Made by a program: the position numbers and the translations under genes | In this document: one piece after another, positions 4,856-39,936 of the stretch | How positions within the stretch are numbered: position 1 is the first letter of the stretch | Layout of the letters: each line of letters begins with the position of its first letter | Virus record (IMG/VR): IMGVR_UViG_3300032431_000015 | Span: 1-46,255 of that record | From: a virus | Strand: one strand, 5' to 3' | Length of the DNA: 46,255 nucleotides | Notes under the pieces: generated by a model | What the model saw: the letters and a program-made list of their open reading frames with translations, nothing else | The model's database searches: none | What the model was told of the DNA's origin: nothing

Positions 4856-5322
4856 GGTGACTTTTCCCACAACAATTTGATCCCTGTCGGAGACTTCATT
4901 GACTGACGGGGCCGACTTGGTGATGACCATTCCCCGCCCCCGCGATGTCCGATAAGCGTCCATCCCGCGCCACGTAGAGACTCCCCCGTTTCGGTCGCCA
5001 GCGTGTAGGTCCCGATTTTTGTAAACCCGAGGGCAAATGCAGCTTTTGAAGCTCTGCCATAAAGGAAAGAACAGGCGTTGCGGGTGCCGTCCGTGCAAAG
5101 CCTCGTAACCTCGGCTGTCAGCCCGTCATCTCGCATCCGAGAAACAGGCCGCCCTACAATGACCACACCTACAAGATTGCCACCGATAAACCCCCCGATG
5201 CTAAAAAGGTGGCCGACCACTGGCGGATGGTGCCGATGAAGCAGACCGACAAAGGCGTTTGCCTCGTCCAAACTGATGCGACCATGTATGAGCCTGCAAT
5301 TCCCGATAGTGACTTCGCGCAT
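4852..5322 (-). CDS. XF1762 family (GNAT-like) phage protein
   Basis: A 156-residue protein. The conserved core is clear: NAFVGLLHRHHPPVVGHLFS, then LVGVVIVGRPVSR, then LTAEVTRLCTDGTRNACSFL, then TYTLATETGESLRGAGW. This is the phage XF1762 family, whose pattern resembles an acetyltransferase fold; substrate and role are unknown. ATG 5322 lies five bases after the stop of dnaB; an upstream in-frame ATG at 5385 would sit inside dnaB. The next small frame overlaps by ATGA. Confidence 0.8.
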   Translation of the reverse strand: MREVTIGNCRLIHGRISLDEANAFVGLLHRHHPPVVGHLFSIGGFIGGNLVGVVIVGRPVSRMRDDGLTAEVTRLCTDGTRNACSFLYGRASKAAFALGFTKIGTYTLATETGESLRGAGWTLIGHRGGGEWSSPSRPRQSMKSPTGIKLLWEKSP

Positions 5323-5327
5323 GGTTG

Positions 5328-6755
5328 TCACATCATTTCCCGTTCGTCGTCCAGCGGCCAGAACCTGTTTGTCTCGATGTGGCATCCAACCTCGACAGTC
5401 ACGGGCGCTTTTCCGTGACGGTTCTTCTGGACAATCAATTCCATGCGGTTTTCGTGACGCTTCACATCAGCCTCCCAGTCGCCTTTCGCCTCAGGCGTGA
5501 CTTCGCCCTTGCCGTTGCGCTTCGGTCCCTGCCTGCGCAGCCAGTACCCTTCCCGGTGCGTGAAAACAACTTGATCCGCGTCGTTCTCGAATTGACCTGT
5601 TTCCTTGATATCGCTCAACGATGGCCGCTTGTTTTCACGCTGGGCGATGTCGCGCGACAACTGACAAAGCGCAATGACAGGAACGCCTACCAGCCCGGCA
5701 ATCGTTTTCAACCCGATGCTGACATTCGTAAGTTGCTCATACCGTCCCTTGCCTTCGCCGCGCACCAACTGCGCATAATCGACAATGACCGCGTGAAGCC
5801 CAATGCTTTTGTCGAACTCTGCCCTTGCCCGCCTGACAGCCGCATCTATCGCCGGAATATCTCGGATACCTTTCGGAATGATCCGTATCGCCGCCGCTTC
5901 CAGCGTCTTTGCAGCGTTACACCACTTGATGAAATCTGCCTCTGCCATTTCATCGGCGGCGCGAATCTGCTCATAAGGTATGCGGCATTCGCGGCTTATC
6001 ATGCGATTGGCCAAGTCCTGCGGCTGCATTTCAAGCGATACAAAAGCAACGCCCTTTGCTGTTCCGTGCTTCGGTGCCGCGATATTCGCTGCAATTTCCA
6101 GCGCCAGCGACGTTTTCCCCATGCTGGTTGCCCCGCCGATCAGGCACAGATCGCCCGGCGACAGGCCGCGCAGCACCTTGTCCAGCGGCGTTCCCGTCTT
6201 GAGAAGCGACGTGTTGCCCTGGAAAATCTCGTTCGCCGCCGTGATCGCTTCCGTCGCGGCGCGCAGAAACGTCAAACTGCTCTCGGAACCGGATGCCTCT
6301 GGGAGGCCCAGAATGACGTGCTGGAGGCCCGAGACGACTTCGCCGATGTCGGATGACCCTACAAGGGCTGTTGCCGCCCCAGACACGGCCCCATGAAGCG
6401 TACGACGGGCCGCAAGGCTGACGATGATGCCAGCATAGCTTGGCGCGGCAAAACCGCTGATCGACGCACCCGCCAGACGCACCAGGTAGGACGGCCCGCC
6501 GTACTCCTTCAACCCGGCGTGATCCGCCATCGCGGTCTTGAGCGTCACCGGGCTGACCAGATGGCCCTTTGCGATGCGGCCGCGCGCTATCCGGTATAAA
6601 TCGGCGTGAACAGGATCGTGGAAATGATCCGGCGTCAGAATGTCGCCTACCATCTGCCCTATTGCATTGTTCGTCAGGATCGCGCCCAGCAACTGCTGTT
6701 CGGCCTCGACGTTGAAAAGGCATTGATCCACCTTGAATGTGGTTATCTCGTTCAA
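5328..6755 (-). CDS. dnaB: Replicative DNA helicase (DnaB family)
   Basis: A 475-residue protein. An N-terminal DnaB domain lies at about residues 10-125 (EAEQQLLGAILTNN), then a linker, then a RecA-like motor. Walker A is GGATSMGKTS at about 207-216, Walker B is AVIVDYAQL at about 322-330, and the later LCQLSRDIAQRENKRPSLSD and ADQVVFTHREGYW are typical DnaB motifs. It unwinds DNA at the phage fork. I use the TTG at 6755: it overlaps the upstream stop as TTGA and has GGAG eight bases before it, while the ATG at 6842 would overlap a whole gene. It follows the initiator gene by one small gene, as in lambda-type O/P modules. Confidence 0.92.
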   Translation of the reverse strand: MNEITTFKVDQCLFNVEAEQQLLGAILTNNAIGQMVGDILTPDHFHDPVHADLYRIARGRIAKGHLVSPVTLKTAMADHAGLKEYGGPSYLVRLAGASISGFAAPSYAGIIVSLAARRTLHGAVSGAATALVGSSDIGEVVSGLQHVILGLPEASGSESSLTFLRAATEAITAANEIFQGNTSLLKTGTPLDKVLRGLSPGDLCLIGGATSMGKTSLALEIAANIAAPKHGTAKGVAFVSLEMQPQDLANRMISRECRIPYEQIRAADEMAEADFIKWCNAAKTLEAAAIRIIPKGIRDIPAIDAAVRRARAEFDKSIGLHAVIVDYAQLVRGEGKGRYEQLTNVSIGLKTIAGLVGVPVIALCQLSRDIAQRENKRPSLSDIKETGQFENDADQVVFTHREGYWLRRQGPKRNGKGEVTPEAKGDWEADVKRHENRMELIVQKNRHGKAPVTVEVGCHIETNRFWPLDDEREMM

Positions 6756-18341: not shown

Positions 18342-18762
18342 CCGAGACGACCGAGACGAAGCCATGACCGAGACCGCCAACCTTGTCGCGCGACTGACCG
18401 GCTTCACGCCGGGGCCGTGGCGGGCTGACCGAGCATTTCAAGAAAATCTTGGGGGCTTTTCGGCCAATGAAGGGGTGATCTGCGATTTCGGTGATTCTTC
18501 CCGGTCTTACCCGACAGAGGGCGTCCCGCCCAGCGCCGCCAACGCCGCCCTGATCGCGGCCGCGCCGGACCTGCACCGCCACGTTGTGGAATTGTTGGAT
18601 CGCCAAGCCGCCGCGATCGCCCGCGAGGCGGCGCTGCGGGAGGCGCTGCACTATTACGGCGACTTTACTGACGACCCGCACGACGGCCCTTGGGGTGTAA
18701 ACAGCGATGACTATGGCACGAAAGCCCGCGCAGCCCTTGAGGTGAACCATGACGCACTTTGA
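18328..18762 (+). CDS. Conserved phage protein of unknown function, 144 residues
   Basis: The start at 18328 lies in the junction module; ATG 18364 (MTETANLV) may be the original start. Characteristic segments are TGFTPGPWRAD and AANAALIAAAPDLHRHVVEL, common in phage early proteins of unknown function, and then REAALREALHYYGDF, shared with the gene at 13280. It ends in EVNHDAL from the third module copy. Confidence 0.65.
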   Translation: MTHFDRDDRDEAMTETANLVARLTGFTPGPWRADRAFQENLGGFSANEGVICDFGDSSRSYPTEGVPPSAANAALIAAAPDLHRHVVELLDRQAAAIAREAALREALHYYGDFTDDPHDGPWGVNSDDYGTKARAALEVNHDAL

Positions 18763-19945
18763 CAAGGCCCTGACGGACGGCAGCAATGCGCTCTATGCGC
18801 CGCTGATCGCAAAGGTGAACGCCTGGGCCTATTGGCGGCCCACAGAGAAGTGGCGCAAGCTGGGCTACACGGGCAAGGCCCTGCGCCTGCCCGGCAAGAT
18901 CGGCGACACCCACGACCTTGACCGCGCCGCCGAATGCCGCCGCCTGACCGTTGCCATGCTGGATTCTCTGGGCATGGGCACCGGCGCGCAGCCCGGCACA
19001 TGGGGATGGCTGATCGAGAGGTATCAGGGCGACAGCTACAGCCCCTATGCCGCCGTGAAGGGTTCGACGCGCGCCAACTACGCATGGATGCTGACGCGCT
19101 GGAAAGAGGCAATCGGCCATCTGGACTTTGCCGATATGACCTACGTGAGCATCAAGGAAATCGAAGCCGCGATGCAGGCCAAGGGCCGCTCGATCAGCTA
19201 TATCCGCCGCATGTTCGTCATGCTGCGCACGATTGCATCCTACGGGCGCAAGCTGGGCGTGAAAGAGGTTCGCGAAGTGCGGGAAATCATGGCCGACATC
19301 CGGTTCAAGATGCCGGCCAAGCGCGCCGTCACAGCCAGCCGCGAGCAGGCTATGGCTGTCATCGCCGAGGCCGACGCAAGGGGCATGGTCGGATTCGCGA
19401 CGGGTGTTCTGATCCAGTGGGTGACCATGCTGCGCGGGGTCGATGTGTTCGGCCAGTGGCTTCCTGCACTGGGGGAGGGCGGCATCATCGTGGACGGCCA
19501 GCGGTGGCAGGATGGTCTGACCTGGGACATGTTCGACGCCGACCTGATGGGGTTTCGCAAGGTCGTCTCCAAGACCGCATCAAGTTTGCCCGGCCCGATC
19601 TACTTCTCTCTGGCCGATTGCCCTGATGTGCGCGCCAGGCTGGCGCTGTTGGCCAGTGGCGGCAGGATCGGCCCCGTCATCCGATCCAGCAGCGGCCTGC
19701 CCTACACCACACAAGGGCGGGGCAGGGCATGGCGACGGATATCCGACCGGCTGAAACTGCCGCGCGAAGTTCTGATGATGGACTTGCGCGCCGGGGGCAT
19801 CACGGAGGCCATGACCATGGGAGCCTCGACGCAAATGCTGCGCGATGCAGCGGGCCACCTGAATGAAACGACCACGAACGGCTATATGCGCGGTCGCGAA
19901 CGGCACGTCGCCGAGGTCATCGCGCTGCGGTCCAAGGCCGAATGA
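18749..19945 (+). CDS. int: Tyrosine-type integrase
   Basis: A 398-residue recombinase. A core-binding domain (about 80-180, including TRANYAWMLTRWKEAIGHLD) precedes the catalytic domain. Catalytic residues seen: Arg229 (VTMLRGVD), Lys275 (VVSKT), Arg347 (MDLRAGG), His370 (AAGHLNETTT) and nucleophile Tyr379 (NGYMRG). The first His of the usual HxxR box is Met344. It should recombine attP, 75 bases downstream, with a host tRNA-Lys gene. The start at 18749 uses GAGGTG from the junction module. Confidence 0.92.
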   Translation: MTHFDKALTDGSNALYAPLIAKVNAWAYWRPTEKWRKLGYTGKALRLPGKIGDTHDLDRAAECRRLTVAMLDSLGMGTGAQPGTWGWLIERYQGDSYSPYAAVKGSTRANYAWMLTRWKEAIGHLDFADMTYVSIKEIEAAMQAKGRSISYIRRMFVMLRTIASYGRKLGVKEVREVREIMADIRFKMPAKRAVTASREQAMAVIAEADARGMVGFATGVLIQWVTMLRGVDVFGQWLPALGEGGIIVDGQRWQDGLTWDMFDADLMGFRKVVSKTASSLPGPIYFSLADCPDVRARLALLASGGRIGPVIRSSSGLPYTTQGRGRAWRRISDRLKLPREVLMMDLRAGGITEAMTMGASTQMLRDAAGHLNETTTNGYMRGRERHVAEVIALRSKAE

Positions 19946-21643: not shown

Positions 21644-21850
21644 CTACGCCCTGTTCCGGGTCATGTACGAGGCCAGAAGCCCAACTGCGGCGGTGATGGC
21701 GGCGGTGATGGCCGGGGAAAGCGTTGTCCCCATGCCGGGCCAGTACGCGTCCACCCCGGCGATGATTGCCACCGTGATGGCCGAGGCTATGGCGCCGGCG
21801 GTCCACTTGCGGGTCGGGGCGGCAGTCGTTTGGTTGATCAGGTCGCTCAT
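21644..21850 (-). CDS. Holin (probable)
   Basis: A 68-residue protein preceded by a good AGGAG. Two hydrophobic helices (AGAIASAITVAIIAGVDAYW and LSPAITAAITAAVGLLASYM) with a basic C-terminus form the class II holin layout. It would make the membrane lesion that lets the amidase at 22103 reach the wall. Two lysis-type genes lie just upstream. Confidence 0.65.
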   Translation of the reverse strand: MSDLINQTTAAPTRKWTAGAIASAITVAIIAGVDAYWPGMGTTLSPAITAAITAAVGLLASYMTRNRA

Positions 21851-22102: not shown

Positions 22103-22852
22103 TCAGGGGTTGAGTGCGCGGCGATCCGCGACGAATGCCAATGCGGCCTCGACCTGCGCCGCCGCCAGTTGGCCTTTGCGTTCTTGGGCAATCATACATT
22201 CACGCCGATTGCTGCCAAAGTACGGCTCGGTGATGATGATAGGGACGCCGGGCAATGCAAAGACCGACCTGCCGCCCCGCAACTCGGTGGCGCTCAACCG
22301 TTTGGTCCCGCGCGACTTGGTGCCCAGCGCCTTGACGGTCGCCTCCTGAACCATCGCCGCCAGCCTTGAACTGCCCGGCGTCCCGTTGTGCAGCATTTCA
22401 CAGCCGTTCGCCGATGGGTCCGAGAAAGCGTTGAAGTGCAATTCGAGCACCGCGTCCGCCCCCCAATCCCTGATGGCCTCATAGGCAATGGCAATCTCGC
22501 GGGGGTAGCTTCCGACCGAGCGGCGCTTGAACACCTTGATCCGATCGGGCGACAATGCGGCCATCATCTTTGCCAGATCGCCGTTCCAGTCGTATTCGCT
22601 GCGTCCATCGGTGGCTCGCACCGCCCCTTGCGATGCGGCGTTGTGCCCCACCAGGACGGCAAGTCGCCCGCCGCCCTGCACAGGGACCGACGGGGGCGGG
22701 ATGGGCACTGTAGGCGTCTGTTTGAGGGCAGGAAGGGCAATATCCAGCGCACCCCTACTGCGAGGGCCGAAAATGCCGTCGATCGCGCCAAGATCGAAAC
22801 CGTTGTCCCGAAGCCTGGTCTGCACCAGCCTGACTGCATCGTTGTCGTTCAT
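22103..22852 (-). CDS. Endolysin: N-acetylmuramoyl-L-alanine amidase
   Basis: A 249-residue protein. Residues 5-45 form a peptidoglycan-binding repeat (RLRDNGFDLGAIDGIFGPRS). After a Pro linker, an Amidase_3 domain follows with zinc ligands His70 (LVGHNA), Glu86 (RSEYDWN) and His139 (LELHFNA) and catalytic Glu209 (IITEPYF). It cleaves the amide bond between muramic acid and the stem peptide at lysis. No signal peptide is seen, so it depends on the holin. Its start overlaps the upstream gene by ATGA. Confidence 0.9.
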   Translation of the reverse strand: MNDNDAVRLVQTRLRDNGFDLGAIDGIFGPRSRGALDIALPALKQTPTVPIPPPSVPVQGGGRLAVLVGHNAASQGAVRATDGRSEYDWNGDLAKMMAALSPDRIKVFKRRSVGSYPREIAIAYEAIRDWGADAVLELHFNAFSDPSANGCEMLHNGTPGSSRLAAMVQEATVKALGTKSRGTKRLSATELRGGRSVFALPGVPIIITEPYFGSNRRECMIAQERKGQLAAAQVEAALAFVADRRALNP

Positions 22853-23136
22853 TCTATAACCACCTCCAACTTTCTTTCGATCCGGGCCAATGTCCCGACG
22901 ATGTTGATCAGTCGTTCGTCGGTCTGTGCGCGCGACAGTTCGAGCGTTCGGATGCGTATCTCGTTCTCGCGGGCGTTCGCTGTAACCAATACCGCCGCCG
23001 CCTCAACTGCGCCCAGCCGGTGCGTCTGTTGGCTGGCCCACCAAATGACGCCGCCAGTTTGCAGCACAATCGTCAGGATCAGTGCGACGGGTACTCGTTT
23101 GTCCAGATGCCAAGGTCCCATATCTTCGTCAGCCAT
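22849..23136 (-). CDS. Single-pass membrane protein with coiled coil, lysis-associated
   Basis: A 95-residue protein. One membrane helix near the N-terminus (VPVALILTIVLQTGGVIWWA) is followed by a periplasmic-type coiled coil (RENEIRIRTLELSRAQTDER, then LARIERKLEVVIE). The layout resembles inner-membrane spanins or accessory holins placed before endolysins. No lipoprotein partner is nested in it. It overlaps the endolysin start by ATGA. Confidence 0.6.
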   Translation of the reverse strand: MADEDMGPWHLDKRVPVALILTIVLQTGGVIWWASQQTHRLGAVEAAAVLVTANARENEIRIRTLELSRAQTDERLINIVGTLARIERKLEVVIE

Positions 23137-23663
23137 CAGTAATGTCCCTGTGCGACCAGCGCGTTTTGCGCTTCGATCTCGCCCATGATTTCGATTACGG
23201 CGCGGAACGCACCAACAGCGCCGGGTGCCAGTTCGTTAGCTTCGCGCAACGCTTTCAGCCAGTCGTTGGCCTCCTGAGCAAAGCCGAACCGCAGATGCGC
23301 GCAGGAATAGCCGATAGGTTCCAGCCGCTTGCGGATCACAGCGCCGCCCCGAAGGTGCGCACCGCAAAAGATGTACGCCGCCCCGCCGATCAGCATCGTC
23401 CCGGACAGCGACTTGGCAAACCGGCGCGCTGCCAGATTGTCGCGCCCCTGCGCCGGTAGCGTCACCGACATATCCAGCAGCAATTCGCCGCTGCGCTGCA
23501 AACACGGCGGAAGGTGCAGGTCGAGTTCGGCATGAACAATCGCCTGCGCCCGCAGCCAGTCGGCCCATTCCTGCCTGCCGATCAGGCCCTTGGCCATCCG
23601 CTGGCCCCACGGGTGGCTTTCCGCATCGTGGTGCAGGGCTTTGGTGGCCTCATACAGGTTCAC
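23136..23663 (-). CDS. Heme-oxygenase-like protein
   Basis: A 175-residue protein starting at GTG 23663 (GTGA overlap). The N-terminus LYEATKALHHDAESHPWGQR matches the proximal-helix pattern of heme oxygenases (ATxxxHxxAE), with His11 or His12 as heme ligand, and continues MAKGLIGRQEWADWLRAQAI in the expected place. The distal helix signature appears as YIFCGAHLRGGAVI (97-110), close to the usual YLGDLSGGQ motif, but the Asp of that motif is His or Ala here. The fold is well supported; enzymatic activity is uncertain. It sits between tail and lysis genes. Confidence 0.7.
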   Translation of the reverse strand: MNLYEATKALHHDAESHPWGQRMAKGLIGRQEWADWLRAQAIVHAELDLHLPPCLQRSGELLLDMSVTLPAQGRDNLAARRFAKSLSGTMLIGGAAYIFCGAHLRGGAVIRKRLEPIGYSCAHLRFGFAQEANDWLKALREANELAPGAVGAFRAVIEIMGEIEAQNALVAQGHY

Positions 23664-23920
23664 TTCGATCTGCCCTCGGCGCGCGCGGCCGCGACCTGCA
23701 ATTCGCTGACCTGTCCGACCAGCTTCGCCATTGCGGGTGCCATGACCGTCTCGAAGTCCTCCGCGTCAACCGGCTGCGGATCGGCCTCGCCTTCGGCCCA
23801 CACCTTGCCCGTCTCCTCGTCCCACACCTTGACCATGTATTTCTGATGCGCGCCGACCAGGCCGTTTTCATCGAACCGGAACAGGATTTCGTAAAGGTAG
23901 CGATCTTCCTTGATAGCCAT
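23660..23920 (-). CDS. Hypothetical protein, 86 residues
   Basis: AGGAAAA precedes ATG 23920. The first half alternates strands (YLYEILFRFDENGLVGAHQK, then YMVKVWDEETGKVWAEG); the second is helical. It is translationally coupled to the heme-oxygenase-like gene (GTGA) and follows a tail fibre gene, so it may be a fibre chaperone or adaptor. That is inference only. Confidence 0.55.
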   Translation of the reverse strand: MAIKEDRYLYEILFRFDENGLVGAHQKYMVKVWDEETGKVWAEGEADPQPVDAEDFETVMAPAMAKLVGQVSELQVAAARAEGRSK

Positions 23921-23930
23921 GATATTTTCC

Positions 23931-25721
23931 TTAGCTGATGATTACGCGGTCGGTGACGCGCCGCCAGTTGACTGCATCCGAGAACGCGAGCACCGCGCCG
24001 CCCGTTTCGTTGCTCACATAAATCTGCGCCCCGGCACCGCTGCCGCTTGCGCTGGGGACGGTGGCAACGGTGTAGCTGGCGCAGCGGATAGGGCCGTTCA
24101 CCTGCAACGGGCAGGTGGGAGTGTTGACCCCGATCCCGACGGTTTGCGTCTGGGTGATACGCAGGCCGGTCACCATAACGCCTGCCGCATCTGCCGTGCG
24201 GAAATCTATGTTCCCGGGAACGATGCCAGCAGAGATCGTGCCAACCGCCGACACCTGGATGATTGCCGCCTGCTGAAACTGCGTCCCGTCCGTGCCCAGA
24301 AATCGCAGCGCGCCGAGCAGATCATTGGCCTGCACAGTCGCATAGTTGCCGACTGTCGCGCCGCGCGATTTGCCAAAGTTCTGGGATACCGCCGCATTGT
24401 CATTCGCCCAACGCGCGGCGGTAAAACCCGTGGCTTCCCCCACCAACGCATTGGTCTGGAACGCCCCGACCCCTATTCCCACCAGTGCAGTCGGTCCTCT
24501 CAGGTAAATCTGGTTTGAGGTCCAGCCCAGCGCCGTCAGCATGTCGCGGTCCAGTATCGTGCGCCACGCAGCCCCGGCCACGTATTGCAGCGCGGCACGA
24601 CCCGCCACCGGATCATCCGTTACGGTAATCAGGTCGCCTTCTGCCGTCGCCGCGGACGGGCGGGTGGCCGTGGTATAATCGCTGGGGTTGATCCGCCCCC
24701 GCAGGGTCACAGGATCCGTGCGCCGCGAGTCCATAACCCTTCCGCCGCCGACTTCGGGCGAACCATAGATATTGGTGCCACCAAGAACGCCCGTCCCGAT
24801 CCACGTCAGGCCGCCGTTGTCGAGGATGTCCAAGCCATTGTCATTGCCGACGGTTTTGCGAAAGTTCGACGTGCCGGAGATCATGGTCGTGCCCGACTGC
24901 GTGGTTTGGATGCCGATGCCGAACGCGCCCCGACCGTCATGGTCCGAGATCGAAAGGCGCGACGTGAAGTTCTGGAGGTTTGCAGCGCGGTTATCTGAAA
25001 TCCTCATGCGCGACAGTGCAAACGAACTGTTCTGGAACAACGCCCCGATGCTGAAATTGGTAAACCCGCCCTGGTGTATCTGGGCTGGCGTCAACTGCCA
25101 CATTCCTGTGCAGGAAATCGCCCTGACGCCGTAGACAAGGATACCGCCCGCCGTCAGATCGCTGTCCGGGCCGGTCCAGGTCGCATTGTCCAGCCTGAAC
25201 AGGCAATTAAGCCGGGGCATCCCCGCCAGCAGGCCACTGAAAAACGCCCGCCCCTCCGGCAGGACACCTGCGGGACGAAAAATCGAGCAGGCCGATACAG
25301 GCACGTCGATTTGTGCATCGTCAGAATAAATGAACACCCACGACAGGTTCAAACCAAGCAGGATAACCGGGCGCGCAGGGACATAGCCGGTCAGGATGCG
25401 GACCGCGCCGCCAAACTCTACGGGGTCGTCGCTGTTGGGCGCGATCTTGGTCGCGAAAAAGGCCAGCGCGTCGTCAAGCTCGGCATACTCACCGCCCGGC
25501 CCTACGGTCACGGTGTTGGGCGCGGCGGGCAGTTGGGCGGTCAGAGGACGCCACTCGCCGTTGACGGCTTCCCAGATATTGCCTTGCAGGTCGCGCACAA
25601 ACTGATCGGCATAGGCCGCCGCGTCCAGGGTCAGAACGTCCGTATAGCGCAGCGGGGCGGGCAGGGACCGGACGCGACCGGATGCCAGGGGGGGGACGAA
25701 GCTGGGGGGGACAGTGCTCAT
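23931..25721 (-). CDS. Tail fibre or spike protein with beta-helix
   Basis: A 596-residue protein. A short Pro-rich N-terminus is followed by a domain typical of spike bases (DVLTLDAAAYADQFVRDLQG, then VTVGPGGEYAELDDALAFFA), then a long stretch of short strands with Asn/Gly turns, consistent with a right-handed beta-helix. The C-terminal part (about 480-596) with TQTVGIGVNTPTCPLQVNGP and VLAFSDAVNWRRVTDR is common in fibre tips. It probably recognises the host surface. No catalytic motif was identified. Confidence 0.75.
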   Translation of the reverse strand: MSTVPPSFVPPLASGRVRSLPAPLRYTDVLTLDAAAYADQFVRDLQGNIWEAVNGEWRPLTAQLPAAPNTVTVGPGGEYAELDDALAFFATKIAPNSDDPVEFGGAVRILTGYVPARPVILLGLNLSWVFIYSDDAQIDVPVSACSIFRPAGVLPEGRAFFSGLLAGMPRLNCLFRLDNATWTGPDSDLTAGGILVYGVRAISCTGMWQLTPAQIHQGGFTNFSIGALFQNSSFALSRMRISDNRAANLQNFTSRLSISDHDGRGAFGIGIQTTQSGTTMISGTSNFRKTVGNDNGLDILDNGGLTWIGTGVLGGTNIYGSPEVGGGRVMDSRRTDPVTLRGRINPSDYTTATRPSAATAEGDLITVTDDPVAGRAALQYVAGAAWRTILDRDMLTALGWTSNQIYLRGPTALVGIGVGAFQTNALVGEATGFTAARWANDNAAVSQNFGKSRGATVGNYATVQANDLLGALRFLGTDGTQFQQAAIIQVSAVGTISAGIVPGNIDFRTADAAGVMVTGLRITQTQTVGIGVNTPTCPLQVNGPIRCASYTVATVPSASGSGAGAQIYVSNETGGAVLAFSDAVNWRRVTDRVIIS

Positions 25722-25724
25722 GCG

Positions 25725-26168
25725 CTACACCGTGACCGGATCATGAATGTCTGCCGACTTTTGCAGAGCCGACCCGAACAGGTCGAACACGGCTGCAACC
25801 TCGGCGCGCGCTTGCAGCCTGTCGCCGACGGCTGTGGCGGCCAACAGCTTGAACAGGCTCAACCCCTGCACCGGCAACAGGCCCTGATCCATGCCGGGAA
25901 TGATCCAGCGCCCCAGAAAGGTAACGGCACCGCTTTCGTTCAGTACCCGCAATTCGATCCACCGCAGGGTGCCGCTCTTGTTGGTCACGTTGAGCGGCCG
26001 GCTCAAAAACACCTCGCCCGGCGTCACCTCGCGGTTGCCATCGCCGTCGCTGTCGGGCGTGTCGAAATCGGGCGCTTCGATGATGTTGGTCCAGCCGGTC
26101 GGAAGATCGGTCAGGGCAACGCGGACGGCGGCCCCGGATGACGGGCTGCGGGTAATGATCCTTGGCAT
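25725..26168 (-). CDS. Hypothetical tail-associated protein, 147 residues
   Basis: GGGAG lies just before ATG 26168. Mostly beta: SGAAVRVALTDLPTGWTNII, an acidic loop (DFDTPDSDGDGNREVTPGE), then SGTLRWIELRVLNESGAVTF. It lies between two fibre genes, suggesting a linker or adaptor in the fibre complex. The acidic loop might bind calcium. Confidence 0.6.
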   Translation of the reverse strand: MPRIITRSPSSGAAVRVALTDLPTGWTNIIEAPDFDTPDSDGDGNREVTPGEVFLSRPLNVTNKSGTLRWIELRVLNESGAVTFLGRWIIPGMDQGLLPVQGLSLFKLLAATAVGDRLQARAEVAAVFDLFGSALQKSADIHDPVTV

Positions 26169-26169
26169 G

Positions 26170-28359
26170 TCAGAAACTCCCTGCGATTGAGGCCCGAAGC
26201 GCCCTGATGCGGATGGAACGGTCGAACGGCGGGCCGCGCAATTCGCCAGACCGGGCGTCTATTTCCATGCCGCCGACAAACAGGGCGTTGCCTTGATCGT
26301 CCTGACCTGAACTGACGACGCGCCCTCCGTTCAGTTGAAGCAGGGAACGGCGGATATTGTTTCCGATCACCGGCTGCGGCGGTATCTTTGCCAAATCGAC
26401 GCCGGTGAACGGCGCGGTCCACTGGTGATTGATCGACGTGACCAGCGACGGCAGATCGGCCCGGTTGGGCGTGTTGACCGTCGCGTTCAACTTGAGCACA
26501 AAATCGGTGATCATGCTGATGGCACCCGCTGACAAGCCAAGCGCGATCATCTGGTCGCGCAGATGGTTGAAGGCGAAAACGAAAGCTGCCGTCATGGGTG
26601 CCGCCCAGACCGGCTGGGCGTTCCAGTCGAACAGCCCCTTCTGAAACGCGCGCATCGGCCCGTCCTGCCCTGCGCGCAGCGAAAGGGTGACTGCAAGAAT
26701 TAACGTGCCGGTATCTTGCCGGGTGAACGCTTCGTCCAGAGCCGTCCATCCTGCCGTGAAGCCGCCCGCCACCAGCGCATTCCAGGTGCTGTTCGTCAGG
26801 GCAACCGTCGCCGCCGTGATGGCCGTGGCGGCTCCGCTCTGCACCGAAAGCGTCACGGTGGCGGCGCGCGGCACGATGACCAGACGCTTGCCATTGGCCA
26901 CCAGCGTCCAGTCGCCGAACTGGCTGGAACAGCTTGAACAGATCACCTGACCGCCTTCCAGTGCGACGTAATGCATGTGGCACCAGATGGCGACAGCGTT
27001 GACAGCGTTTATCAAGGCCCCTTTGCGCGCGACGTAACCCATGCCGTTCGGCGATGAAGGGGTTGCCCCCCAAGTCATGATGTTGGGAAAGGGAGAGTGT
27101 TGCGAACAGACCGACCCATCGGCCAGCACCACGCCGCCGCCGCGCGGATAATTCGGGTTGCCGTTGTAGGGGTCGGTCGGGGCAGTGATAACGACTGGCA
27201 GACTTGAACGATAGACCGTGATGTCGTGCGCGTAGGGCACACGGCGGATGACTGCACCGGGCCGGAACGACACGGCGAAACCTTCGGTCGGATCGGTAAA
27301 ACTGTTGACCCGCCAGCCCTCGAAGGAAAACCCGGAAAGGTATGCGCCGTCGCCCATGCGAAAGACGTTGCGTTCCTCAAACCCGACCGCTGGCACGATC
27401 TTGGTGACCCGCGCCCGGCCAATGCCGATGATGCTGCACATGTCGGGCATGTTCAGGTGCCCTTGCGTGACGTAGGTGCCCGGATAGACGTAGATCGCAG
27501 AGAAATCGCCGTCGTCGTCCCAAGCCGCCTGCGCCAGCACGATTGCGCGCTCGATTGTCGCCACGGCACGGTTCAGGATGCGCCCGTCATTGCTGTTGTT
27601 GCCGCCGGGTTCGACGTAAAAGGTCTGGTTGATAGGCCGCTCAAAATAGGTCGTGGTCAGCGGGCCAGCGTTATACCACTGACCATCATCCCAGATGTAG
27701 ATGATGATGCCGCCGCCGGTGATGTGGCCCCATGCCTGCCCGTCAAGCGCGCTTCCGGGGCGGTCTGCGAGGTTGGTGGATGCCCCGATCAGCGTCAGCC
27801 CCAGATAGTTGCCGGGGTCGCCCTTCGGCCCGATGGGGCCACGGGGGCCGATCGGTCCAATGGGGCCGCGGGGGCCGGGGGGCCCCGGGGGGCCGGGCAC
27901 ACTTTCGCCGAGTTCCCACATCAGGGCTGCGTTCACGCGCGCATACAGGCCGGGAACGGGGTTCAGCATGGGGCTGGCCGGGCCGGTCAGGCGCGGCGCG
28001 CGGTCCACCTCTTGCCGCAGTTCAACGTCCACAGCCGTCTGGCGGCCCAGTTCGATGTTGATCTTGCGCGTCAGGCCGGGGTCGGCCGGCAGGTAGTTCT
28101 CACCGCGATCCGGGCGCATCGCGCCGAAAATCTCGACCTTTGCATCCGGCGGCGCGGCTATCCCCAACATGATGGTTGCGGCGTCGGAATATCCGTTGGC
28201 GAACGCCGCATCGACCGTGAAGCTGACGTTGCGCACGTTGTTTACGTAAACGTCCAGGGCATCGGTCTCGAACAGGCGGAAGCCGACAAGGAACGGCCCC
28301 TCCGACGCCACGGCGAGGACAATACGGGTGATGCGCGGGGTTGCTGGAACAGTTGCCAT
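26170..28359 (-). CDS. Tail fibre with T7-type N-terminus and collagen-like repeat
   Basis: A 729-residue protein. Residues 5-90 (RIVLAVASEGPFLVGFRLFE, then ALDVYVNNVRNVSFTVD) resemble the N-terminal tail-attachment domain of T7 gp17. At about 156-183 there are nine collagen-like Gly-X-Y triplets (GPPGPPGPRGPIGPIGPRGP). A beta-helix-like region follows (TFYVEPGGNNSNDGRILNRA, then IYVYPGTYVTQGHLNM). ATG 28359 is used; an upstream TTG at 28371 is less likely. Expected to form trimers that attach to the tail and contact the host. Confidence 0.82.
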   Translation of the reverse strand: MATVPATPRITRIVLAVASEGPFLVGFRLFETDALDVYVNNVRNVSFTVDAAFANGYSDAATIMLGIAAPPDAKVEIFGAMRPDRGENYLPADPGLTRKINIELGRQTAVDVELRQEVDRAPRLTGPASPMLNPVPGLYARVNAALMWELGESVPGPPGPPGPRGPIGPIGPRGPIGPKGDPGNYLGLTLIGASTNLADRPGSALDGQAWGHITGGGIIIYIWDDGQWYNAGPLTTTYFERPINQTFYVEPGGNNSNDGRILNRAVATIERAIVLAQAAWDDDGDFSAIYVYPGTYVTQGHLNMPDMCSIIGIGRARVTKIVPAVGFEERNVFRMGDGAYLSGFSFEGWRVNSFTDPTEGFAVSFRPGAVIRRVPYAHDITVYRSSLPVVITAPTDPYNGNPNYPRGGGVVLADGSVCSQHSPFPNIMTWGATPSSPNGMGYVARKGALINAVNAVAIWCHMHYVALEGGQVICSSCSSQFGDWTLVANGKRLVIVPRAATVTLSVQSGAATAITAATVALTNSTWNALVAGGFTAGWTALDEAFTRQDTGTLILAVTLSLRAGQDGPMRAFQKGLFDWNAQPVWAAPMTAAFVFAFNHLRDQMIALGLSAGAISMITDFVLKLNATVNTPNRADLPSLVTSINHQWTAPFTGVDLAKIPPQPVIGNNIRRSLLQLNGGRVVSSGQDDQGNALFVGGMEIDARSGELRGPPFDRSIRIRALRASIAGSF

Positions 28360-28402
28360 GATGCCGAGCAAGGTGCGTCAGGCACGGCGCAGTCTAAATG
28401 CA

Positions 28403-36473: not shown

Positions 36474-36940
36474 TACCGGCCCCCTCGCAGAAAGCCGCTC
36501 ACGGGCGACGGGCTGTCGGACGGCCCGCGCTGGATTGCGTTGAAGCCCGCCAGGCTGAACATGGACGTGCCGAAGGTCGCCAGCGGCTCCAAAGACCTGC
36601 CGATGGCCGACGCCGACTGTGCCGCGCCTTGCGAGCGGTAGTCGGCCCCAAGCTGTCGCTCGTTTGCCACTGCAACGCGCGCCTGACGCTGCCGCAGTTT
36701 GCGCAATTCCTGAAAAAACTCCGAACCACCGCCCTGACCGTTCGCAGCGAAGGTGGCGCGCAGCGTTGCCAGTTCGTCAGCCAGCCCGAGGTTGGCACTG
36801 GTCTGCGTCTGGATCGCCCGCGTCCCGGAGATGTAGGAATTGATCTGTGATTGCTGTCTGGCGGCGCGGGCTTGGGAAAGGCCGCTCAGGAACCCGAAGG
36901 CCCCGGATGCGGCGCGCAGGCCGAGAGCGAATGGGATCAT
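36473..36940 (-). CDS. Internal core protein (T7 gp14-like position)
   Basis: A 155-residue protein. ATG 36940 overlaps the tail nozzle stop by ATGA. A hydrophobic N-terminus (MIPFALGLRAASGAFGFLSG) precedes a long Gln/Arg/Ala helix (RQQSQINSYISGTRAIQTQT, then FFQELRKLRQRQARVAVANE). Size, composition and place between tail nozzle and large ejection proteins match gp14-type core proteins. Confidence 0.65.
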   Translation of the reverse strand: MIPFALGLRAASGAFGFLSGLSQARAARQQSQINSYISGTRAIQTQTSANLGLADELATLRATFAANGQGGGSEFFQELRKLRQRQARVAVANERQLGADYRSQGAAQSASAIGRSLEPLATFGTSMFSLAGFNAIQRGPSDSPSPVSGFLRGGR

Positions 36941-39051
36941 CCTTGAACCTCTTGAGTAAGAGCCAGAATCCGCCAAGCGCCCGGGTCGTCGCGCTTGACG
37001 ATGATGTCGTTGTGCCGGGGCCGGCCGGTGACCGGCACGATGAAAACCCCTTCCCGCAAGGGCGGCGGCTGGGACCAGTCCTCATTGAAAGCGTAGCCCC
37101 CGACGGTTCGCGACTGGAAATTGCAGGAGATTTGAAACGGCCCGGTGTGCTGGACCGAAACCCCGACGCGGAAGGTGCGGACCTGCTTTAGGCCGGCGTA
37201 GGGGCTTTCGATCAGTTCGACCGGCCACGGCCTCACCAGGCAGTTGAACGGCAGGCCGATTTCGGCTTCCCCCTGCACATCCTGCATTCCCGCGACGGCA
37301 CCCAGATCGACCAGCCCCAAACCAACGAACCTGCCTTGCCACGTTACCGCAACGGTTGACCCTTCAAGATGGTCTGCCGCGCCCGGGGCGTTGGGATCGG
37401 CAAACACCGAACAGTCGAGCGTCGCGCTGTAATCCAGCCATTCGATGCTGCGCACGTTTTCATCGCCGATGATCCGGTCCACCAGAAACCAGTAGCTTCC
37501 GAAAATCGGCGCGATGGTGACAAAGAACCCATTGGTCTGCCATGTGACAAAGCCGGGCGTCGTTTGCTCACCCGTCTGGGACCAGGACATGGCCGACACT
37601 GTGCCGTCATTGTGCAGCGCAAGCAGATAGCTTTCCGGCTGAGTTGCCGCCAGGGACGGGCCGCAGAGGAACTGCACCTTCTTGTCGCGCGACCGGGCCA
37701 GAAGGTTGAGCGGGCGCACCGACCATTTCAGGTAGATGTTCCCGTCCAGCAGCGCCGCCAGGATAGTTTGCTCGTCGCTGCCAACGAATACGACCCCATC
37801 CGCCACGACAGCCGGGCTGACCCCGCTACAGGCTCGGGCGTCCACCAGAACCGGCGAGAAGGTGGAGGGCGTCAGCAGCGCGTCCCGCAAGTCCTGAACG
37901 TAGGTGCCCTTGTCCGAGAACAGCAGCAGGTCGCCAGCCGAAACGCCGTGCCGGAACCGGGGGCCATTGTCGCCCATGCGGCGCACGATGGCGTCGTCGT
38001 CTGCCGTGCCCACCTGAAAGTCGCGGAACGACCGTGCCGAGGAAATCGCTATCGCGTCAGGGGCTTGCGGAAAGTCCAGAAAGCACAGCCGCCCCGCCAC
38101 GGCGCAGGCCGCCCGTGGTCCGCCACGATGCAGCGAGATCATCTGTTCATCCCAGATGATGCTGGGCAATGGCGCAATCGGTGTTTTCGCGACCACATCC
38201 TGCGTGGCGTTCGGGCCTGACAGCTTTTCGGCGACATCGGGGCCGTCGAAGTTTTCTGTCGTCAGCACCTTGAGGATGGTGGCCGAGTCGATTTCCGCGA
38301 TGATGCCGGTAAAGCCGCTGTCCTGCCCGATGACGACCTGACCGACGGCAAACTCTGCGGTCGAAGCAACCTGGATGTCGAACGAAGGCGGCAGACTGCT
38401 TCTGACTTCGCCCGTCACCTGCGTCGGCGAGTCATAGCTGAGGACGACGATTTCCTGCCCGACATACCGGATGATGGTTCCCGGCTGCGTTACGCCGAAA
38501 ACGTCTGCGTCGGCGGTCACGGTGACGATGCCGGTGCGGCCTGACGGCGTGATCGTCCTGCCTGTTTCAAAGGCCCAATAGGGTTGGCGCGCCGTGTCGG
38601 TCCCGAAGCCATCGAAAGTAAATCCGCCCATGCGCCATGACCCGGACGGACTGCGGCGCAGGCCGAAAACGTCGCCGCGCGGATCCCCGATGATGGCCCA
38701 TCCCTCGATGATCTGGACCCACAGCGCCGATGCGTCGGTCCAGAAGCCATCTGACGATTGCTGGAACGCGATGCTGCCATCCTGGTTCATCACGATGAGG
38801 GCTTGGTCCGTGAGCAGCAGCGCGTAGGTTTGCCCGGCCAGCGTGGCGTCCAGCAGGCGCACATAATCGCCATTGCCCACCCAGCGCGTTCCGGGGCGTT
38901 GTTCCAGCCCCCCGGCGGTCAGCAGGCGCACGTTCGCTGCGGTCTGCAAGGCGCGGCCCCGCAGTTCGGTGTCGTCGCGTTCGAGGAAGTCGGCGGACAG
39001 TTCGCCACCGGAAAAGTCGCGCTGGGTGACGGCCTGCTTAATACGAGCCAC
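36937..39051 (-). CDS. Tail tubular protein B / nozzle (T7 gp12-like)
   Basis: A 704-residue protein. The start is GTG 39051, inside the end of the upstream gene. The N-terminal FSGGELSADFLERDDTELRG, then RLLTAGGLEQRPGTRWVG, is the conserved opening of gp12-type nozzle proteins (pattern S.R....D.....G....NF....GG...RPGT). The rest is beta-rich, as expected for a beta-propeller nozzle. It forms the lower tail through which DNA leaves. Confidence 0.8.
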   Translation of the reverse strand: MARIKQAVTQRDFSGGELSADFLERDDTELRGRALQTAANVRLLTAGGLEQRPGTRWVGNGDYVRLLDATLAGQTYALLLTDQALIVMNQDGSIAFQQSSDGFWTDASALWVQIIEGWAIIGDPRGDVFGLRRSPSGSWRMGGFTFDGFGTDTARQPYWAFETGRTITPSGRTGIVTVTADADVFGVTQPGTIIRYVGQEIVVLSYDSPTQVTGEVRSSLPPSFDIQVASTAEFAVGQVVIGQDSGFTGIIAEIDSATILKVLTTENFDGPDVAEKLSGPNATQDVVAKTPIAPLPSIIWDEQMISLHRGGPRAACAVAGRLCFLDFPQAPDAIAISSARSFRDFQVGTADDDAIVRRMGDNGPRFRHGVSAGDLLLFSDKGTYVQDLRDALLTPSTFSPVLVDARACSGVSPAVVADGVVFVGSDEQTILAALLDGNIYLKWSVRPLNLLARSRDKKVQFLCGPSLAATQPESYLLALHNDGTVSAMSWSQTGEQTTPGFVTWQTNGFFVTIAPIFGSYWFLVDRIIGDENVRSIEWLDYSATLDCSVFADPNAPGAADHLEGSTVAVTWQGRFVGLGLVDLGAVAGMQDVQGEAEIGLPFNCLVRPWPVELIESPYAGLKQVRTFRVGVSVQHTGPFQISCNFQSRTVGGYAFNEDWSQPPPLREGVFIVPVTGRPRHNDIIVKRDDPGAWRILALTQEVQG

Positions 39052-39637
39052 TGTCGAACCTCGCCATGGCAAACGCGCTTTTCCGCAGGAGCGGTCGGGC
39101 GGCGCGTTGCTGCGAAGCCAGCGTCCGGGCTGTCTGGAACGCTATTTCTGCCATCATTTCCGCCTCTTGGGCTTCTCGCGCCTCGCCTTCAAGCGCGCGG
39201 ATCAGCACTGCCTCAAGACGATGCTGGACGCCTCTCGAAAAGTTCGCCGACCAGATGGAGGGGTCAGGAACGGTCAGGTATTCGATATGGCATCCGCTGG
39301 GGCTGTCCACATAGACTGCCTCGCCATCTGCAACCCAGTCCACAAAGTTGCGGGCCCCCGATCCGGCGAGCCACAGGTGGCGCACGGTCAGCGCGTCATT
39401 GGGGATCAGGAAGCCGTCGCGCTTGCCAAAGCGGCCTTCGATGCGGGTGACAAGGGAGGCCTGGGCCTTGCTGAACTCATATTTGCCCCCCTCCAATTCC
39501 GCCTCAACGATGCTGGGCCAGTTGCGCATCATCACGCGAAACTCTGCCGTGCCATCGTTTTCCGACGTGATTTCATCCCAGCCCCGCGAGACGAGGGCCG
39601 TGTTCATGATGCTGAGCATGGAATACTGGTGTGACAT
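39038..39637 (-). CDS. Tail tubular protein A / adaptor (T7 gp11-like)
   Basis: A 199-residue protein starting at ATG 39637. It begins with a helix and MNTALVSRGWDEIT, then VEAELEGGKYEFSKAQASLV, LIPNDALTVRHLWLAG and later QHRLEAVLIRALEGEAREAQ, the helical/beta layout of gp11-type adaptors that join portal and nozzle. The first gene after the 39638-39936 spacer. Confidence 0.7.
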   Translation of the reverse strand: MSHQYSMLSIMNTALVSRGWDEITSENDGTAEFRVMMRNWPSIVEAELEGGKYEFSKAQASLVTRIEGRFGKRDGFLIPNDALTVRHLWLAGSGARNFVDWVADGEAVYVDSPSGCHIEYLTVPDPSIWSANFSRGVQHRLEAVLIRALEGEAREAQEAEMMAEIAFQTARTLASQQRAARPLLRKSAFAMARFDSGSY

Positions 39638-39936
39638 GGCCTGACCATGCGCGGGCGCGCTGCGCAGGCCACATGCACCAAAAACCAAAAGGCTTGAACG
39701 ACCGGGCCGGACGCGCTATCGTTTCAGCACGCACCAGTGAAGGGGTCGCGTTTTTGGTTCAGCTTGAGAAGGCTGCTAAAAGTGACGGGGTCGGGGATGT
39801 AAGCCCCGGCCCCGTTTCTTTTGGTGCATCCGACCATCGGCGGGCGCGGTGCGCAGGCGATATGCACCAAAATGACGGGGCCGAGGTTTCCCCCGGCCCC
39901 GTCCTCGGTCCAGTAGCCTTTATGGCGTAGCCGGGC
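39638..39936. terminator. Spacer with two terminator-like hairpins and a direct repeat
   Basis: No gene. The hairpin 39874-39903 has a perfect 10-base-pair stem (GACGGGGCCG/CGGCCCCGTC) followed on the minus strand by ATTTT. A second hairpin, 39785-39796 with 39804-39815, has a 7-base loop and is followed by T-rich bases on both strands. A 32-base direct repeat, 29 of 32 identical, lies at 39652-39683 and 39841-39872. The spacer separates capsid genes from tail genes, so it likely sets their relative expression; any restart promoter is not obvious. Confidence 0.7.

Follow-up and report, generated by a model that had tools for sequence, protein, structure and literature searches.

A phage protein with the heme oxygenase fold and an altered distal motif: a predicted virus-specific branch of the heme oxygenase superfamily

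A gene resembling heme oxygenases (HOs) that lies among the tail and lysis genes of a phage raises the question of whether its product truly belongs to the HO superfamily and, if it does, whether it would act on heme or serve as a part of the virion or of the lysis programme. The gene is found in a virus record of 46,255 nucleotides (IMG/VR IMGVR_UViG_3300032431_000015), the whole of which was analysed and is called the window here. A preliminary description of this DNA had assigned the HO fold from two helix motifs, noted that the catalytic Asp of the distal motif seemed lost, and suggested heme binding or a new structural or lysis-timing role.

The HO-like gene occupies positions 23136..23663 and was found to lie on the minus strand, which the preliminary description had not given; it starts with GTG and codes for a protein of 175 amino acids, in which ATKALHHDAE forms residues 6-15 and GAHLRGGAV residues 101-109. 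The GTG start codon overlaps by 4 bp (GTGA) the stop of the ORF directly upstream (23660..23920, minus; 86 amino acids, no function assigned), and the stop codon overlaps by 1 bp (TGATG) the ATG of the ORF directly downstream (22849..23136, minus), which encodes a 95 amino-acid protein with one apparent membrane segment that falls into phrog_8909, a family with no function assigned. Also on the minus strand and upstream are a tail-fibre-like gene (23931..25721; 596 amino acids, phrog_9942, 2.5e-11), a conserved partner of the tail-fibre module (25725..26168; 147 amino acids, cluster c3 with 24 members) and the gene for a 733 amino-acid protein that matches tail proteins (26170..28371; cluster c1, 38 members). 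Downstream lie an endolysin gene for an N-acetylmuramoyl-L-alanine amidase (Amidase_3, PF01520, 2.2e-17; 22103..22852, minus) and a weak holin match (21644-21850, 4e-4). The placement between tail-fibre and lysis genes and the GTGA overlap, both described previously, are thus borne out. The 147 amino-acid protein has no family match and adjoins tail genes in many of the loci described below.

The window also encodes a head-tail adaptor, a major head protein, two tail proteins and an integrase. The co-occurrence of tail genes of phrog_376 and phrog_394 and a head-tail adaptor of phrog_332 (36937-39688 and 18749-19945) with the integrase gene suggests that the phage is temperate and has a podovirus-like tail.

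Taken singly, the window protein gives little indication of its origin. It scored 14 bits (E 0.045) against the Pfam heme oxygenase model PF01126, below the cut-off of 23 bits, and single-sequence searches found no NCBIfam match, no PHROG match and, with phmmer, no HO in the PDB. Since the protein alone fell below the Pfam cut-off, we collected its family for profile work, initially as eight loci and then as 63 in IMG/VR, together with two good and three partial examples in genome assemblies. Both the family profile and the residue counts given below are based on the same 46 members. When this profile was run against PDB sequences HO-1 was the best match (1.4e-7), and all matches better than about E 1 were HOs. 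PF01126 was matched by 37 of the 46 members (best 1.3e-6), and profile-profile alignment with hhalign covered nearly the full length both against bacterial HOs of the BphO type (5e-17 over 156 columns) and against HO-1-type HOs (2e-12). As a control, a BphO-type profile was scored against the real proteins and 2,300 shuffled family proteins: the window protein reached 23.6 bits, the best shuffle 9.0 bits, and more than 10 bits was reached by 46/46 members and 0/2300 shuffles. We conclude that the window protein is a member of the HO superfamily.

The predicted structure leads to the same assignment. An AlphaFold (AF2) model of the window protein was obtained with high confidence (pLDDT 96.7, pTM 0.92) and has the all-helical HO fold; the best 50 listed matches to it in the PDB are all HOs, with TM scores normalised by the query of about 0.7-0.83. 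The preliminary description had named a predicted fold unlike HO as the outcome that would overturn its assignment, and with this confident model and these matches the fold withstands that check; the assignment of the proximal and distal helices is likewise supported by the sequence and structure comparisons. A single-sequence fold of the family member L021 was poor (pLDDT 53) and was left out of the analysis.

Conserved residues can be placed on this fold. The proximal helix segment, residues 6-16 (ATKALHHDAES; 23616..23648, minus), contains His11 and Glu15, which the HMM alignment equates with the heme ligand His25 and with Glu29 of HO-1, and His11, His12 and Glu15 are each invariant (46/46). 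Arg140 (23244..23246, minus; Arg in 45 of the 46 members and Lys in one) aligns with HO-1 Arg183, a residue in contact with a heme propionate. His123 and Asp48 are also invariant and His44 is present in 44/46. These last residues bring in the possibility of a non-heme metal enzyme of the diiron type built on an HO-like scaffold, with His44, Asp48, His103 or His123 as metal ligands, the more so as ribonucleotide reductase has an iron ligand at the HO-1 Tyr58 place, with which His44 aligns (PMC5623701). However, heme-binding HOs account for every match by sequence or fold, the heme-ligand pair His11/Glu15 never varies, and places 44 and 48 are also occupied by His and Glu in many BphO-type HOs. 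HO-like diiron oxygenases were matched neither by the family profile in the PDB nor by the family members in Pfam, and neither diiron nor TenA-type proteins appear among the best 50 listed structure matches. We therefore regard such an enzyme as very improbable. We also considered that His44 might stand in for HO-1 Tyr58 in a new pair of histidines, but no longer count this as peculiar to the family, because many BphO-type HOs share this His.

The feature that sets the family apart appears to be its distal helix. The motif at residues 97-111 (YIFCGAHLRGGAVIR; 23331..23375, minus) has Tyr97, equivalent to HO-1 Tyr134, and Gly101, Ala102, Gly106 and Gly107 invariant in the 46 members, while position 103 is His in 44, Asn in one, Gly in one and Asp in none. 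The family pattern is thus YxxxGAHxxGG, compared with YxxEGSxLGG in BphO-type and YxRYLGDLSGG in HO-1-type enzymes, and the family has neither the distal GDLSGG with Asp140 that marks the HO-1 type nor the EGSxLG(G/A) of the BphO/HemO type. Gly101 and Gly106-Gly107 are spaced by five, whereas the two distal glycines are four apart in the characterised HO classes.

With enzymes of the BphO/HemO (PigA) type the family shares the fold, the proximal TxxxHxxxE/D, a His at position 44 (in many of these enzymes), the YxxxG start of the distal motif and the lack of a distal Asp; it differs in having lost the Glu before the Gly, in a shorter loop after the distal helix and in forming a separate clade. 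With the HO-1 type (human HO-1, HmuO, and cyanobacterial and cyanophage HO) it shares the fold (TM about 0.8), the proximal His and Glu, equivalents of Tyr134, Gly143-Gly144 and Arg183, and an equal spacing from the Tyr to the Gly-Gly; it lacks Asp140, has Ala at the Gly139 place, has no equivalents of His132, Arg136 and Tyr58, and is smaller (about 165-175 amino acids as against over 200). Judged from the alignments, what is unusual is that the distal motif has one residue more than in the BphO type and includes Ala and His.

The preliminary description took loss of the catalytic Asp as a sign that the protein may bind heme or be a new structural or lysis-timing part. This loss is literally true in comparison with the HO-1 type; however, BphO-type HOs, which carry EGSxLGG and lack a distal Asp, include active enzymes (PigA/HemO and BphO), so that the missing Asp does not by itself indicate loss of activity. 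Inactivity might come from the Ala-His motif, which may block HO chemistry and perhaps provide His103 as a second heme ligand, and would leave a heme-binding pseudo-oxygenase that acts as a heme buffer, sensor, scavenger or peroxidase and opens no ring. The alignment with HO-1 is ungapped and sets Ala102 at Gly139 and His103 at Asp140. According to PMC5623701 and PMC5542595 (which cite Liu 2000, Lad 2005 and Lightning 2001), the G139A and D140A changes shift human HO-1 towards peroxidase chemistry at the expense of its HO activity. There is also a precedent in HO-fold proteins without HO activity, PfHO of Plasmodium and HO2 of Arabidopsis (PMC11634067), although both of these have lost the heme-ligand His that every family member keeps. 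The higher-scoring alignment with the BphO type places a one-residue insertion within the motif, and in this register it is Gly101 that would correspond to the catalytic glycine, with His103 falling outside the Asp140 place. We therefore did not accept His103 as an exact match of Asp140. We hold a pseudo-oxygenase or peroxidase without ring opening to be a serious rival, credible but short of probable.

To ask where the gene resides, its surroundings were compared across carriers. The family is present on over 60 environmental IMG/VR phage contigs. Tail genes (clusters c1 or c2) were found within 6 kb upstream in 39 of the 50 loci that have >3 kb of upstream sequence, the Roseovarius locus being taken at 10 kb and some loci being near-copies of one another. 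Many loci then have a baseplate-hub protein (Phage_phiJL001_Gp84_N), a short gene that is NlpC/P60-like by eye, and a large gene, and across loci the HO-like gene often overlaps the preceding ORF by 4 bp. This arrangement shows why the protein might be read as an HO scaffold put to new use and produced alongside the tail fibre, either as a part associated with tail or baseplate or as a tail-fibre chaperone; from the window alone the chaperone reading was attractive.

It is weakened, however, by carriers in which the gene has no recognised tail neighbours. In the freshwater clade L021-L036 genes for YkuD, RNase H-like and Dps/ferritin proteins lie nearby instead, in L047 the gene is near DnaB and ThyX, and in L066 near a superoxide dismutase (SOD); judged by gene content only, these carriers look like larger, T4-like phages. 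As some large phages carry the gene away from recognised tail genes, an auxiliary role is most likely, rather than one in the tail or in lysis timing, and the structural or lysis-timing role first suggested was not upheld. The residues that are conserved are, moreover, those of the heme pocket. We consider a structural part quite unlikely; like the non-heme metal enzyme, it is less likely than a heme-related function. From these varied neighbours the gene seems, in the manner of auxiliary genes, to pass from one type of phage to another, its favoured site being behind the tail fibre.

In L066 a gene for an Fe/Mn superoxide dismutase (5247-5813, plus strand; PF02777, 4.7e-26) lies two genes upstream, and the genes from there to the HO-like gene overlap one another by 4 bp. 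In the freshwater clade a Dps/ferritin-like gene follows the HO-like gene at some 2-3 kb downstream in L022 (8082-8525), L034 (9453-9893) and their relatives, and the ferritin family occurs in six of the 50 carrier records.

The family is nearly absent from sampled host genomes: a strong match was found in only two of 298 Roseovarius-family genomes, one being the query genome itself. The preliminary description had looked to Rhodobacterales phages, and relatives do occur in one genome of Roseovarius and one MAG of the Rhodobacteraceae; for the window's own phage a Rhodobacterales host is presumed. Queries with the window protein and with two other members brought up no relative among 50,697 phage records, while an HO-1-type query of the same records returned only cyanophages and marine virus records (20 records). 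No PHROG covers the family, the matches being spread among unrelated families, none matched by more than five members and most of them no better than chance. In the tree the family forms a separate monophyletic clade (support 100/99). Long branches make its deep placement beside the HO-1 type (91/80) unreliable. Purifying selection is evident (dN/dS 0.03-0.33 in 17 pairs).

From these findings the gene product appears to be a genuine member of the HO fold in a virus-specific branch, in which the heme-holding residues are kept and the oxygen-handling motif has been rebuilt. The reading that we favour, with modest confidence, is that of an auxiliary, late-expressed, heme-binding and probably heme-oxidising protein, which would probably act on host heme. 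Homology, fold, conserved heme-pocket residues, purifying selection and placement are its demonstrated part; the mechanism that follows is conditional. The gene would be expressed late through translational coupling, and His11 of the proximal helix would bind host heme, while Arg140, Arg/Lys8 and Tyr97 would position the propionates and the distal helix, kinked by Gly101 and Gly106-Gly107, would lie over the heme. More tentatively, the bound heme might be oxidised, either with O2 and host reductants, the ring being opened to give biliverdin, CO and Fe2+, or by a peroxide-driven reaction, the latter proposed on account of the Ala-His distal motif. Points against this reading are that GAHxxGG matches neither of the active classes compared, that equivalents of HO-1 His132, Arg136 and Tyr58 are missing, and that the 50 carrier records contain no ferredoxin or bilin reductase gene. 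In the dying host the outcome would be to free iron or to remove toxic heme. The Dps/ferritin and SOD neighbours would fit a role in iron or oxidative stress in part of the family, although few carriers have them and the window's phage has none. We also entertain, as a speculation that is probably wrong, a natural phage heme enzyme in which the distal Ala-His is fixed like the engineered Gly139/Asp140 changes of HO-1, so that the HO scaffold would serve as a heme peroxidase or a bis-histidine heme carrier; in the tail-linked branch the protein might even travel with the virion and make use of host heme receptors.

Phage HOs as such were known, as the preliminary description stated for cyanophages, but those published from outside cyanophages also belong to bilin cassettes (PMC11480375): cyanophages carry ho1, and vHemO occurs with PcyX/PcyA and AlaS. 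Our family resembles the bilin-cassette HemO in being encoded by HO-superfamily genes of aquatic phages; however, neither a bilin reductase (PF05996) nor a plant-type ferredoxin domain was found in the 50 carrier records, many of which are fragments, and the cyanophage enzymes compared are of the HO-1 type with GDLSGG. Literature searches for a comparable phage HO family yielded only the bilin-cassette work. Two BFVD entries from uncultured Caudovirales phages (A0A6J5KN38 and A0A6J5RJ96), compared by fold and identity alone, have the same fold as the window protein (TM 0.85-0.86) at 23% and 19% sequence identity. As they are already named haem oxygenase-like or heme oxygenase, such phage proteins are not a new idea; what is added here is the clade, its distal motif, which was not seen in the enzymes compared, and its genomic context. 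While known phage HOs serve bilin pigment synthesis, this family spans several phage types with no bilin reductase found. If active, it would suggest that phages attack host heme for iron, redox or CO effects late in infection; if inactive, it would offer a natural experiment on how oxygenase or peroxidase chemistry is selected by the distal helix.

A possible cellular cousin was noted in a Planctomycete MAG HO (L070 and L071), which has a proximal helix, LHHAAEHHP, very like that of the phage family and a distal EGSxxGG.
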